A stretch of DNA of 64,000 nucleotides, from positions 62,001 to 126,000 of the forward strand of contig JAFZVB010000013.1 in the NCBI GenBank assembly GCA_017618055.1, read 5' to 3'. Below, one piece after another: positions 3,341 to 44,126 of the stretch (position 1 is the first letter of the stretch; the number at the start of each line of letters is the position of its first letter). The stretch comes from Clostridia bacterium. GTDB taxonomy: Bacteria > Bacillota > Clostridia > Christensenellales > CAG-917. The notes below the pieces were generated by a model. It was not told the origin of the DNA, ran no database searches, and worked only from the letters and a program-made list of their open reading frames with translations. The position numbers and the translations under genes are program-made.

Positions 3341-4588
3341 TTAGATCTCCTTGCCTCTTAAGAATTTATATTTAATGTTTTTAACTTCTCCTGCATAACA
3401 GAATCTCTCAACCACTTCTACTGGTTTGAGTTCTTGGTATTTATCTTCCAATCCTCCAATGACTAAAGCATCAAAGTAATAACCTTTCTCAAAACTACCT
3501 ACATTACCAAATATAGAACCACCTTGTTTAGTTCCTAGATAGAACGCTTCTGCAAATGATATGACTCTATTTTCTTTTTCATACAAAGATTTAATCTTAG
3601 ACAATCTTATTGCACTTGCAATTTGTATATATATACCTAGGCTTTGCCCAGCTGAGATATCACTACCTATTCCAATATTGATTCCATTATCCAAAAGCAA
3701 ACCTGTTGGCATAATACCAGCAATAACATTTGTTGTTGCATCTGCACATTGGACTGCAATTCCATTATGCTTCTTTAATATATCTATATCTTCTTGAGAT
3801 GGATAAATAAAATGTGCTGCTATAGTCGGACCATATTCTAATAGACCAGCATCTTCATAAATTTGCATATCACATCTGCAACCATCAAAGCACTTCTTTG
3901 CCTCTTCTTTCTCCCATTTAGATTCCACTATATGAGTCTGCAAACCAACCTTATATTTAGCCATCAAGTTGCCCAATTCTTTCAACAGTTCAAAACTACA
4001 CGTTGGTGCAAAACGAGGAGTTAAAATTGGTTTTGAATATACTTTATCTATATGTTTCTGCAAAAATAACTCAGTTTTATCTATGGACTCTTGTGTGTCT
4101 TCTAGAAGGTATTTCGGACTGTTTTTATCCATATTAACCTTGCCAACATAAGACATAATTCCATGCCTTTCTAATTGGTCTATAAGGGTATCCGTTGCCT
4201 TATTATGGATAGTCCCAAAAACAACTGCGTGCATAGTTCCATGGGCTATCATATCATCAACAAAAGCAGTATATACATCCCTTGCATATGTCTCATCTTT
4301 AAACTTTTCTTCCAATGGGAATGTGTATTTATCTAGCCAGTTCGCTAGCACCTCATCCATCGCTAACCCACGATTAGGATATTGTGGTGCATGAGTATGA
4401 AGATCAGTGAAAGCAGGAATAATAACATCTCCACCAAAGTCTATAATTTCTACATTAGAGTATCTCTCTGGAAGGGTTTCATATATTCCTTCCACTATTC
4501 CATCTTGGACAACTATATAGCTGTCCTTATATTCGACTAGATTCTTTATGTCTTTAGAATAAACTATGTCGCCGTGATATATTTCCAT
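3341..4588 (-). CDS. guaD: Guanine deaminase (amidohydrolase family)
   Basis: Hydrolyses guanine to xanthine and ammonia in purine salvage and breakdown, in the cytoplasm. The 415-residue product has the amidohydrolase metal motif PAFTDLHTHAPQY (H64 and H66 bind zinc), followed by RGLAMDEVLANWLDKYTFP, characteristic of guanine deaminases. Later come a metal-ligand His in LQTHIVESKWE, AAHFIYPSQED and the catalytic Asp in GIGSDISAG. Length is close to the bacterial norm (about 430). The start ATG at 4588 is separated from the preceding HAD gene by 1 nt, which indicates an operon. The product xanthine may connect to the transporter leader at 33.4 kb (see findings), but only as a hypothesis. Confidence 0.87.
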   Translation of the reverse strand: MEIYHGDIVYSKDIKNLVEYKDSYIVVQDGIVEGIYETLPERYSNVEIIDFGGDVIIPAFTDLHTHAPQYPNRGLAMDEVLANWLDKYTFPLEEKFKDETYARDVYTAFVDDMIAHGTMHAVVFGTIHNKATDTLIDQLERHGIMSYVGKVNMDKNSPKYLLEDTQESIDKTELFLQKHIDKVYSKPILTPRFAPTCSFELLKELGNLMAKYKVGLQTHIVESKWEKEEAKKCFDGCRCDMQIYEDAGLLEYGPTIAAHFIYPSQEDIDILKKHNGIAVQCADATTNVIAGIMPTGLLLDNGINIGIGSDISAGQSLGIYIQIASAIRLSKIKSLYEKENRVISFAEAFYLGTKQGGSIFGNVGSFEKGYYFDALVIGGLEDKYQELKPVEVVERFCYAGEVKNIKYKFLRGKEI

Positions 4589-30613: not shown

Positions 30614-31333
30614 CTATTCCGCATCCTTAGCCACTATGGATAGTAATTCTTTTCTAACTACATCTAGTTCTGGATCTATTAAAGTTCTTACCATAGCATC
30701 TTTCTCAATCTTGGTATTATAAATTATTTCAACTGGATTATTAGCAAACACATAAACATTGTCTGCAGCAAGTAAACACTCATCTATTGCATGTGTTACA
30801 AAGATAACTGTCTTTCTTTCTTCCCTATGTAATTCAATCAATACTTTTATGAGTTTGGATTTTAAAGAAGTATCCAAAGCTTTGAATGGTTCGTCTAGTA
30901 AAATCACATTACTTGGGTATAAGAAAGCCCTAGCAATTGCAGCCCTTTGAATTTGTCCTCCACTCATCTCTGTTGTGTACTTCTTTGCACAGTCCTCGAT
31001 CTCCAAAAGTGAGAGCATTTTTAGTATCTTTTCTTTCCTTTCTTTCTTATCCTTAATTTTGGTCTTTAATATCAAATCAAGGTTTTTATATATCGAAATC
31101 GTAGGGATTAACCTGTCTTTTTGAAAAATATAACTAACTCCATCCTCGTGTCCTTCTATACTTCCATCATATGGTAAAATGCCTGCGATACAGTTCAAAA
31201 TTGTTGTCTTTCCAACACCACTTGAACCCAAGATTACATTGACTTTATTCTCCTCAAATTCAACATTAAAGGAATCAAAAATGACCTTATCTTCATAGCT
31301 AACTTTTAGGTTTTTTATAACAACATTGCTCAT
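30614..31333 (-). CDS. ABC transporter ATP-binding protein (SsuB/TauB-type)
   Basis: A 239-residue ATPase. Walker A is GSSGVGKTT, the Q-loop is in YIFQKDRLIPT, the signature is MSGGQIQRAAIARAF and Walker B is VILLDEPFKALD, with the H-loop His in FVTHAIDECL. It matches the nitrate/sulfonate/taurine importer ATPase class. ATG 31333 is chosen over an in-frame ATG 15 nt upstream, because GGAGG lies 8 nt before it and the ATGA overlaps the permease stop, a standard coupling. It is the last gene of the operon led by the 33383 attenuator. Confidence 0.9.
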   Translation of the reverse strand: MSNVVIKNLKVSYEDKVIFDSFNVEFEENKVNVILGSSGVGKTTILNCIAGILPYDGSIEGHEDGVSYIFQKDRLIPTISIYKNLDLILKTKIKDKKERKEKILKMLSLLEIEDCAKKYTTEMSGGQIQRAAIARAFLYPSNVILLDEPFKALDTSLKSKLIKVLIELHREERKTVIFVTHAIDECLLAADNVYVFANNPVEIIYNTKIEKDAMVRTLIDPELDVVRKELLSIVAKDAE

Positions 31334-32106
31334 CTTGTTTTCCTCCATATGAACTTAGATAAGGACACTATTCCTTCAAGAATAAAGGCTATAACTATGG
31401 ATGCAATAGTCCATGCAAGAAGGTAATCCATATCAAAAATATTCTGTGCTTGTTTGATACTTGTTCCTATACTCATTGGTATTGATGTTAATATTTCAGA
31501 TGCCACTACAACCTTAAATGTTAAGGACAATGTGGACTTACTCATATCAAATAAAGTAGGTGTAACACTTGGAAGATAAATACTTATAATTCTGTCCATT
31601 GGTCTAACTTTATATATTTTTGCCATTTCAATAAGATCCTTATCTACATTCTCTATTGCACTATAGAAAGCAGAGTAAAGAATTGGGAAGGCAATTAAAA
31701 GACCAACAACTATTGCAAGCTTATCATTTGCCATAAATGCATACATAATCAAGATTACAGCCACTGTAGGAGCAGCTCTGAGAATGGTGATGATTGGTGC
31801 CAATACTTTATTGATAGGCTTACAAAGATTTCCTAGGGACGCTAGAATCAACGCCAAAGCAAAAGAAATAACAAAGCATATTAAACTACGCAATATAGAC
31901 CACCCTATATTAACCCAGAAATACTTCTCGCCAAACATTAAGAAGAATGTTTTTAGAGTTATCCCTGGTTCTGGAAGGACTATAGGCTTGTTATATGCCT
32001 TTGCACAAATAGCCCAAACTGCCAGCACTAAAGCTAGTGCTAGCAATGGGTAAAATATATTTGAGCATATCTCTAATGCTTTTTTGTTAATCTTAGGTTT
32101 ATTCAT
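31330..32106 (-). CDS. ABC transporter permease (SsuC/TauC-type)
   Basis: A 258-residue permease with about six membrane helices. The EAA-like coupling loop is around IEMAKIYKVRPMDRIISIYLP, with the preceding AAPTVAVILIMYAF. The family is BPD_transp_1, as in nitrate, sulfonate, taurine and HMP/thiamine-precursor importers. Its start ATG overlaps the stop of the binding-protein gene by 1 nt. Confidence 0.9.
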   Translation of the reverse strand: MNKPKINKKALEICSNIFYPLLALALVLAVWAICAKAYNKPIVLPEPGITLKTFFLMFGEKYFWVNIGWSILRSLICFVISFALALILASLGNLCKPINKVLAPIITILRAAPTVAVILIMYAFMANDKLAIVVGLLIAFPILYSAFYSAIENVDKDLIEMAKIYKVRPMDRIISIYLPSVTPTLFDMSKSTLSLTFKVVVASEILTSIPMSIGTSIKQAQNIFDMDYLLAWTIASIVIAFILEGIVSLSKFIWRKTR

Positions 32107-33089
32107 CAGAATAAAATGTCTTTCTTTTCTGTCCAGTTTACATTTGGCATAATTCTAGATAAGAATGTGATAATCTTTTCTTGGCTTTCATAATTAAGTC
32201 TTTCACAATTGATTGCACATCTCTCTATTGATCCTTCTGGGAATGCTGCTGATTCATATAAATGTTCTTTAGCGTATGCTGTAACTGCATTCTTATTGTT
32301 TAATACCCAGTTTTTACTTTCTGCCAATGCATTGAATAATGCTGTCATGAAAGTTCCATTATTTGCCAAACTTGTTTTTACAAACAAACCTGCTTGTGGA
32401 TATGAATTATTATTACCTACTGCTGTATTATATAATGCTTGAATATCCATTCTTGCATTGTATCCTGCTTTAGCAGAGAGTGCTGTTGCTGCTGGTTCTC
32501 CAACTACTGCATAATCTGCACTGCCACCTTGAACTGCCGCATTTGCTGCTGGTCCATCTGCTGCCCAAACAATCTTTACTTGATCTGTCCCCGGTGTTCC
32601 TTCTGTTACAATGCCAATATTGTTTGCACTAAGGATATAAGAGAATGTTAATCCTGGAACTGCACCTTGTCCGATACATGCAACGGTCTTTCCTTTGATG
32701 TCATCTAATATAATAGTATTGCTTCCATCTTTATTACCAATTAAATAAAGACTTCCATCTACAGCAATACTTACAAGTTTGTATTGAGCACCCTTGTTTG
32801 CAATTAAGTTTGCGCCAGCGTTTATAGGCATAATTACTATGTCTGACTTCTCTGCTGCCATCTCTGTTGCAATGTTTGCAGGAGCAACAACACTATATTC
32901 AATGTTGAGTCCGTCTAACTTCTTGTTTTCTGTAACCATATGGCAGATTGCAAGAGCTGGTGTACCTTCTGGAGCAGCAACTTTAATAGTTACTTCTTCT
33001 CCATCTTTTTTGTTGTTACAAGCAACTAAACTAATGGCTAAAACAGCCACTAATGCTATAATTAAAACAACTGCTAATAACTTTTTCAT
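32106..33089 (-). CDS. NMT1-family ABC substrate-binding lipoprotein
   Basis: A 327-residue lipoprotein; the lipobox is SLVAC. The mature chain is a periplasmic-binding fold of the NMT1/THI5-like, sulfonate/nitrate family: IKVAAPEGTPALAICHMV, then DIVIMPINAGANLIANKG, and a late GGSADYAVVGEPAATAL. Ligands known for this fold include sulfonates, nitrate, pyrimidine thiamine precursors, riboflavin and purine-related compounds, so the substrate cannot be told. It is encoded after the TM1266-like regulator and under the same attenuator, so the regulator and ligand may be linked. Confidence 0.88.
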   Translation of the reverse strand: MKKLLAVVLIIALVAVLAISLVACNNKKDGEEVTIKVAAPEGTPALAICHMVTENKKLDGLNIEYSVVAPANIATEMAAEKSDIVIMPINAGANLIANKGAQYKLVSIAVDGSLYLIGNKDGSNTIILDDIKGKTVACIGQGAVPGLTFSYILSANNIGIVTEGTPGTDQVKIVWAADGPAANAAVQGGSADYAVVGEPAATALSAKAGYNARMDIQALYNTAVGNNNSYPQAGLFVKTSLANNGTFMTALFNALAESKNWVLNNKNAVTAYAKEHLYESAAFPEGSIERCAINCERLNYESQEKIITFLSRIMPNVNWTEKKDILF

Positions 33090-33382: not shown

Positions 33383-33452
33383 AAAAAAGCCACCTTTTAC
33401 AAGATGGCTAGAAATATACCTTACAAATAAAGTAACTTATATGCGCCATCTT
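33383..33452 (-). promoter_or_regulatory. Transcription attenuator / candidate riboswitch ahead of TM1266-ABC operon
   Basis: The leader RNA (minus strand) has three matching arms. Arm A AAGATGGC (33445-33452), arm B GCCATCTT (33401-33408) and arm C AAGGTGGC (33389-33396), followed by TTTTTT (33383-33388). B-C makes a rho-independent terminator just before the TM1266 ribosome site. A-B makes an exclusive alternative, a 52-nt hairpin with a perfect 8-bp base, then AUAUA/UAUAU and UUAC/GUAA helices separated by internal loops (GC/UUCUA and AG/GG). This is the layout of a small-molecule riboswitch in which the bound hairpin would be the antiterminator (an ON switch). The NMT1 (xanthine) class is a hypothesis to test; I do not recall its consensus reliably. 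Confidence 0.65.
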
Positions 33453-33489
33453 ACTCTCCGAGAACTCATCGATTGGGATTCGTGTATAT

Positions 33490-33518
33490 AGTTTACTCCT
33501 CCTAATAAGGGGTGTCAA
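33490..33518 (-). promoter_or_regulatory. Promoter of the TM1266-ABC operon
   Basis: Minus strand: perfect -35 TTGACA (33513-33518), 17-nt spacer and -10 TAAACT (33490-33495). Transcription would start near 33483, about 30 nt before arm A of the attenuator. Confidence 0.75.
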
Positions 33519-44029: not shown

Positions 44030-44126
44030 AGCGTAACTGAGTCTGAAATATGGAAAGCAGGGAAAGTATGGTGTAATTCCGTCACAACAGCCATTACGGT
44101 AAGAGTCCGATAGCCTGCCTTACGCT
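44030..44126 (+). promoter_or_regulatory. Cobalamin riboswitch aptamer
   Basis: P1 is the perfect AGCGTAA (44030-44036) with TTACGCT (44120-44126). Inside are GGAAAGCAGGGAAAG, the conserved GGTGTAATTCC (B12-box region), CACAACAGCC, ACGGTAAGAGTCCGA and TAGCCTGCC, in the order of the cobalamin riboswitch consensus. It lacks large optional stems, so it is a compact variant. It controls the DUF4430 lipoprotein and ECF S-component genes. Confidence 0.85.

Follow-up and report, generated by a model that had tools for sequence, protein, structure and literature searches.

The TM1266 operon and its leader

The window, the whole stretch of 64,000 nucleotides analysed here, carries a four-gene operon on its minus strand preceded by a structured leader (Table 1). 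The first gene encodes a TM1266-family protein and is followed by genes for a substrate-binding lipoprotein (SBP) of the SsuA/TauA/NMT1 fold, an ABC permease, and an ABC ATPase. The predicted structure of the SBP (pLDDT 92) is nearest to 3hn0 and then to the TauA, SsuA, and Thi5 folds. No substrate is named for 3hn0, and none of these structural neighbours fixes one. Genes 3' of the operon, named by eye as ruvC, ruvA, and the like, are unrelated and offer no clue to a ligand. Thiamine is an unlikely regulatory signal because nearly every related genome has a separate TPP riboswitch, adjoining thiT-, cytX-, or thiC-like genes where the neighbours were read. Elsewhere in the window, an AdoCbl-II riboswitch (44044-44124, plus strand, 46.5 bits) precedes genes that by eye encode a small lipoprotein and an ECF-type membrane component. 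The open reading frame at 3341-4588 (minus strand) is probably the one taken for guanine deaminase in a preliminary description of this DNA; it lies ~29 kb away in a different operon.

TM1266 proteins are named hydrogenase regulators, a name for which the literature searched offered no supporting data. HydE, whose presence in the same genome would mark an [FeFe]-hydrogenase TM1266 regulator system, is found above the cut-off in none of the f1 genomes searched, and the HydE-positive genomes of the order carry a more distant TM1266 type. The absence of HydE from f1 genomes indicates that the window TM1266 acts outside HydE-dependent hydrogenase maturation and does not regulate a hydrogenase here.

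Table 1. Operon genes and leader elements in the window
Feature	Position	Strand	Remarks
ABC ATPase	30614..31348	(-)	
ABC permease	31330..32106	(-)	
SsuA/TauA/NMT1-fold substrate-binding lipoprotein	32106..33089	(-)	nearest solved structure 3hn0
TM1266-family protein, 82 aa	33114..33362	(-)	start ATG 33362; PF21699 3.9e-21; TIGR03959 77 bits, above cut-off
Shine-Dalgarno AAAGGAG	33374-33368	(-)	
T6 tract of terminator	33383..33388	(-)	
Arm C, terminator 3' strand, AAGGTGGC	33389..33396	(-)	
Arm B, GCCATCTT	33401..33408	(-)	common to antiterminator and terminator
Arm A, antiterminator 5' strand, AAGATGGC	33445..33452	(-)	first 5 nt within core (AAG of UAAG plus P1')
Conserved core hairpin (proposed anti-antiterminator), AUCCCAAUCGAUGAGUUCUCGGAGAGUAAGAU	33448..33479	(-)	covariance model R1, 6.6e-12, sole match in genome
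P3 hairpin GA-GUUC-UC	33460..33467	(-)	100% paired in 18 homologs, compensatory changes
GA step	33469..33470	(-)	candidate tandem sheared G.A with GA 33458-33457
P2 5' strand UC	33471..33472	(-)	pairs with GA 33456-33455
P1 5' strand AUC	33477..33479	(-)	pairs with GAU 33450-33448
Promoter-like TTGACA-N17-TAAACT	33490..33518	(-)	

The preliminary description had read the leader as a consensus promoter followed by three arms, of which A and C compete for B. The promoter element matches the consensus at 10 of 12 positions and is a plausible promoter by its letters, although matches at this level are no commoner in the sequence than in shuffles. The three arms are present letter for letter, and the perfect 8-bp match of A with B is borne out. 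Arms B and C form an 8-bp stem with one G.U pair and the loop GTAA, which together with the T6 tract is a sound rho-independent terminator. When the 136-nt leader was shuffled 5000 times with its dinucleotides preserved, 2 shuffles contained a terminator and 0 contained a terminator together with a perfect 8-nt antiterminator arm. The terminator lies between the putative promoter and the first gene, as in a transcription attenuator. It had been placed right on the first ribosome site; in the window genome, the T tract ends ~8 nt upstream of the Shine-Dalgarno sequence. The constrained minimum energies of the antiterminator fold (-20.2 kcal/mol), the terminator fold (-21.4 kcal/mol), and the core plus terminator (-20.9 kcal/mol) fall within ~1.2 kcal/mol, which matches the expectation for a switch.

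Terminators are found in nearly all homologous leaders. In some families (for example, L071, L111, and L115), the 3' half of the stem includes a ribosome site (AAGGAG or AGGAG), with the T-tract and ATG directly after it, and translation may come under joint control with termination.

The conserved core and its exclusion of the antiterminator

Homologous leaders share a core of ~32 nt that lies just upstream of arm A and overlaps it only at the core 3' end. Its consensus, C-nnA-AWC-GA-U-[GA..UC]-G-GA-GWG-UAA-G, describes a P1 helix, a 3x3 loop (nnA/UAA), a short P2, a GA/GA step, and a P3 hairpin. In the window, the core reads AUC-CCA-A-UC-GA-U-GA-GUUC-UC-G-GA-GA-G-UAA-GAU; the GA that follows GGA pairs with UC to form P2. 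From the conserved letters, the GA/GA step is proposed to pair as tandem sheared G.A. About 20 nucleotides are nearly invariant and are concentrated in the internal loops of this ~30-nt element.

Compensatory changes, anticipated by the preliminary description for the A-B hairpin, occur in homologous leaders within this core. The covariance model R1 was built on 18 homologs (A1), including the window copy. In P1, A-U exchanges with G-C at columns 4-41 and U-A with A-U at columns 5-40, and other families have a longer covarying P1. The P2 pair at columns 11-34 is U-A or A-U in 9:9 of the 18 homologs with zero exceptions. The 57 single-type copies have 47 U-A, 10 A-U, and 0 mismatched pairs at this position. 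Both sets of counts include related sequences and are not independent events. Across P1, P2, and P3 of the 18 homologs, 72.9% of cells are paired (60.9% in shuffles), 29 cells are changed on both sides (13.2 in shuffles), and the covariation score is 0.247 (0.090 in shuffles). These structure scores exceed all 500 shuffles and every slid register. A ligand pocket had been expected in the A-B internal loops. Homologous leaders do not preserve these loops; conservation falls on the core at 33479-33448.

R1 matches occur in 80 of the 396 genomes of the order searched, and the core is seen before TM1266/SBP/permease/ATPase operons in at least four of its families. Of the 54 matches with E ≤ 1e-3, 53 are directly upstream of TM1266 and the remaining one is truncated by the end of its contig. 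Wherever a locus was read beyond TM1266, the genes after the core were TM1266, SBP, permease, and ATPase. Most weaker matches also precede TM1266, and the remainder look like chance. Wider searches, covering 391 genomes from the class and 398 from the phylum, gave nothing credible outside the order, and a match in another class (genome G836), without TM1266, is due to chance. The window genome has one copy, and each carrier has one operon with the core. The SBP alignment was short of conserved stretches for scanning named genomes, and TM1266 was used as the query instead; the named carriers are uncultured Clostridia and Christensenellaceae-like bacteria, and the group lives in the gut.

The core and the antiterminator draw on the same strand. 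The antiterminator of the window and of the family nearest to it is formed by AAGACGGC/AAGATGGC and overlaps the UAAG and P1' of the core. In other families, the partner of the terminator 5' arm lies within the core, at CGGAGAG and the 3' side of P3. Among 48 dereplicated leaders, the core 3' strand fits its own terminator arm with a mean score of 17.0, compared with 15.0 for swapped and 13.8 for shuffled arms, and 0 of 1000 arm swaps reach the own-pair score (maximum 16.4). The better fit of own arms indicates that the terminator arm follows where the core letters vary, for example in the pairs TATCAGAGAGT / GCTCTTTGATA (L112) and TTTCGGAGAGT / ATTTTCCGAAA (L121). Thus, the antiterminator excludes the core and covaries with the terminator arm, as expected of an attenuator. 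At the level of aligned sequences, the core, its pairing, its mutual exclusion with the antiterminator, and its association with the operon are established.

These features support the earlier view of an attenuator- or riboswitch-like leader before a TM1266 and SsuA/NMT1-fold ABC operon, and the leader is very probably a transcription attenuator, with termination as the predicted outcome. In the proposed mechanism, the core hairpin is an anti-antiterminator. When formed, it would occupy its own 3' strand and leave B free to pair with C, so that transcription stops before TM1266 (OFF). When the core is unformed, its 3' strand would pair with B as the antiterminator, and the operon would be read (ON). 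Since the core and the antiterminator exclude each other in the families examined, a stabilised core probably promotes termination.

A second leader before hydrogenase-type TM1266 genes

Another conserved leader, ending in a terminator, often precedes TM1266 where the gene belongs to a hydrogenase maturation operon (L124-L153 and L246-L285); it occurs in many Clostridia. Its pattern is C-UGA-[CAC/CGCC/CAU]-GA or RA-[hairpin]-GA-[GUG/GGCG/AUG]-RAA-GG. In type 1, 89.6% of P2 cells are paired (60.0% in shuffles), and in type 2, 88.5% of the cells of the structure (82.7% in shuffles). The corresponding model, R3, has matches in 22 of 245 genomes, and 22 of 22 lie within ~500 nt upstream of independently located TM1266 genes. 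The gene after TM1266 is HydE, HydG, or HydF, depending on the genome. A terminator scan within 260 nt found none for ~30 of 70 hydrogenase-type TM1266 genes, which indicates that TM1266 is not always behind such a leader.

The second leader resembles the window core in layout, with C-UGA, a short P2, GA/GA, P3, and AA-G, a 3' strand that feeds the antiterminator, and a constant position before TM1266. However, its P2 is CAC/GUG-like with covariation of its own, and covariance models built for one leader type fail to match the other. Kinship between the two, judged by eye, is hypothetical.

Several leaders have additional elements. In twelve f1 leaders (L006, L007, L008, L020-L026, L029, and L030), the core is present twice, the second copy having its two strands in swapped order and lying inside the first. 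Their pattern, CGGAG..GG ... C[GA]AUG, places two internal loops in mirror order on one hairpin. A central helix of 4-6 bp can be drawn in most of these doubled leaders, where the complementarity of own pairs is not significantly above that of swapped ones (157/2000). In the f5 leaders L073, L078, L082, L088-L090, L110, L114, L202, L217, and L229, an extra conserved hairpin of the CGGUGA..CUUCUCGCCG or GGGAUUUAUUCCC type lies 5' of the core. The leader of an f12 TM1266-SBP operon (L037:1830-1990) looks intermediate between both leader types, having a GUG/CAC helix with GA and then GGAGAGAAAA.

Effector, alternatives, and known systems

The favoured candidate for stabilising the core is the TM1266 product, a tentative hypothesis at a little below even odds. 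Operons with the window-type leader share a single gene, TM1266, with the hydE, hydG, and hydF operons that carry the second leader, and TM1266 is the first gene in every operon bearing either type. Two further points argue for this role: the ABC-type genomes lack HydE, and the TM1266 relative of solved structure, 2nzc, has an ACT/NikR-like fold of a small-molecule-sensing type. TM1266 would thus act on the core, probably while carrying a small molecule, in a PyrR-like autogenous feedback on itself and the transporter. The strand-swapped second core of the 12 doubled leaders would suit a symmetric protein dimer. Against TM1266 as effector count the existence of leaderless TM1266 genes and the net charge of the protein, which does not differ between leader-bearing and leaderless operons (1.49 and 1.59).

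A broader scheme makes TM1266 an ACT-like metabolite-sensing, RNA-binding repressor of its own operon that acts through the leader hairpin. Two related RNA subclasses would then serve [FeFe]-hydrogenase maturation in many Clostridia and a recruited transporter in Christensenellales-like bacteria without HydE. Taken as a whole, this scheme is rather unlikely.

A classical riboswitch, in which the core is a small aptamer, probably for the transported compound or its product, and exerts OFF feedback on uptake, is a serious possibility, though not the favoured one. The core is aptamer-like, with its invariant nucleotides mostly in internal loops and with compensatory changes; it is mutually exclusive with the antiterminator, and feedback on a transporter is typical of riboswitches. 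Doubled cores are likewise known in established riboswitch classes. However, every credible occurrence of the core precedes an operon that begins with TM1266, and none precedes a different transporter or a biosynthesis gene. There is one such operon per genome, and the gene context yields no ligand. The direct riboswitch and TM1266 as effector remain close.

The ON switch of the preliminary description, in which effector binding favours the A-B hairpin, is improbable. In the window, it draws on the perfect A-B helix with its internal loops, but these loops vary among homologs, and since the core itself supplies the antiterminator strand in other families, a stabilised core must weaken the antiterminator. 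A plain leader with a constitutive terminator, whose conservation has some other source, for instance a protein with no relation to TM1266, is still less probable, as the core covaries with the terminator arm and is conserved across families.

If TM1266 does bind the core, it would represent a novel type of RNA-binding attenuator and would also account for how hydrogenase maturation operons are controlled. The leader provides a handle on the function of TM1266 proteins and on the cargo of the SsuA/NMT1-fold importer, and the single operon per genome makes it easy to test.

Comparative evidence supports the core leader well as a cis-regulatory RNA, one that neither Rfam 15 nor the literature searched contains. 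Rfam 15 gives no match to the window leader at the gathering score and chance matches only at E 10, and the second leader likewise has no Rfam match. Literature on TM1266, on the family accessions, and on riboswitch candidates before hydrogenase genes, mostly open-access main texts, describes neither leader.

Membership in, or relationship to, the NMT1-motif xanthine riboswitches, suggested by the binding-protein family name and nothing else, has a negligible probability: the Rfam models of this class give no match even at E 10, and NMT1 RNAs are described as proteobacterial, almost without terminators, and built on a different junction (PMC7373994). The window leader, also structured, differs from them in taxa, structure, genes, and expression platform, having a terminator where NMT1 RNAs use the ribosome site (PMC7373994). 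The shared "NMT1" is a coincidence of names.

Two protein-dependent systems offer parallels in design. The window leader resembles the pyr attenuator (RF00515) in having a small putative regulator as the first gene, a conserved purine-rich hairpin that excludes the antiterminator, and a terminator just before the first gene. In pyr leaders, PyrR binds the anti-antiterminator. The sequences, however, are unrelated, the window leader scoring 17 bits where the cut-off is 54, and it lacks the PyrR binding-site sequence. In addition, pyr operons carry pyrimidine genes, whereas the window operon encodes TM1266, for which RNA binding is hypothetical, and an ABC importer. RAT antiterminator hairpins of the LicT/SacT type are pseudo-symmetric. 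The doubled f1 leaders recall them, since the same internal loop is present twice, in mirror order. Unlike RAT systems, the window operon has no PRD protein, its leader is unrelated in sequence, and its core opposes the antiterminator.
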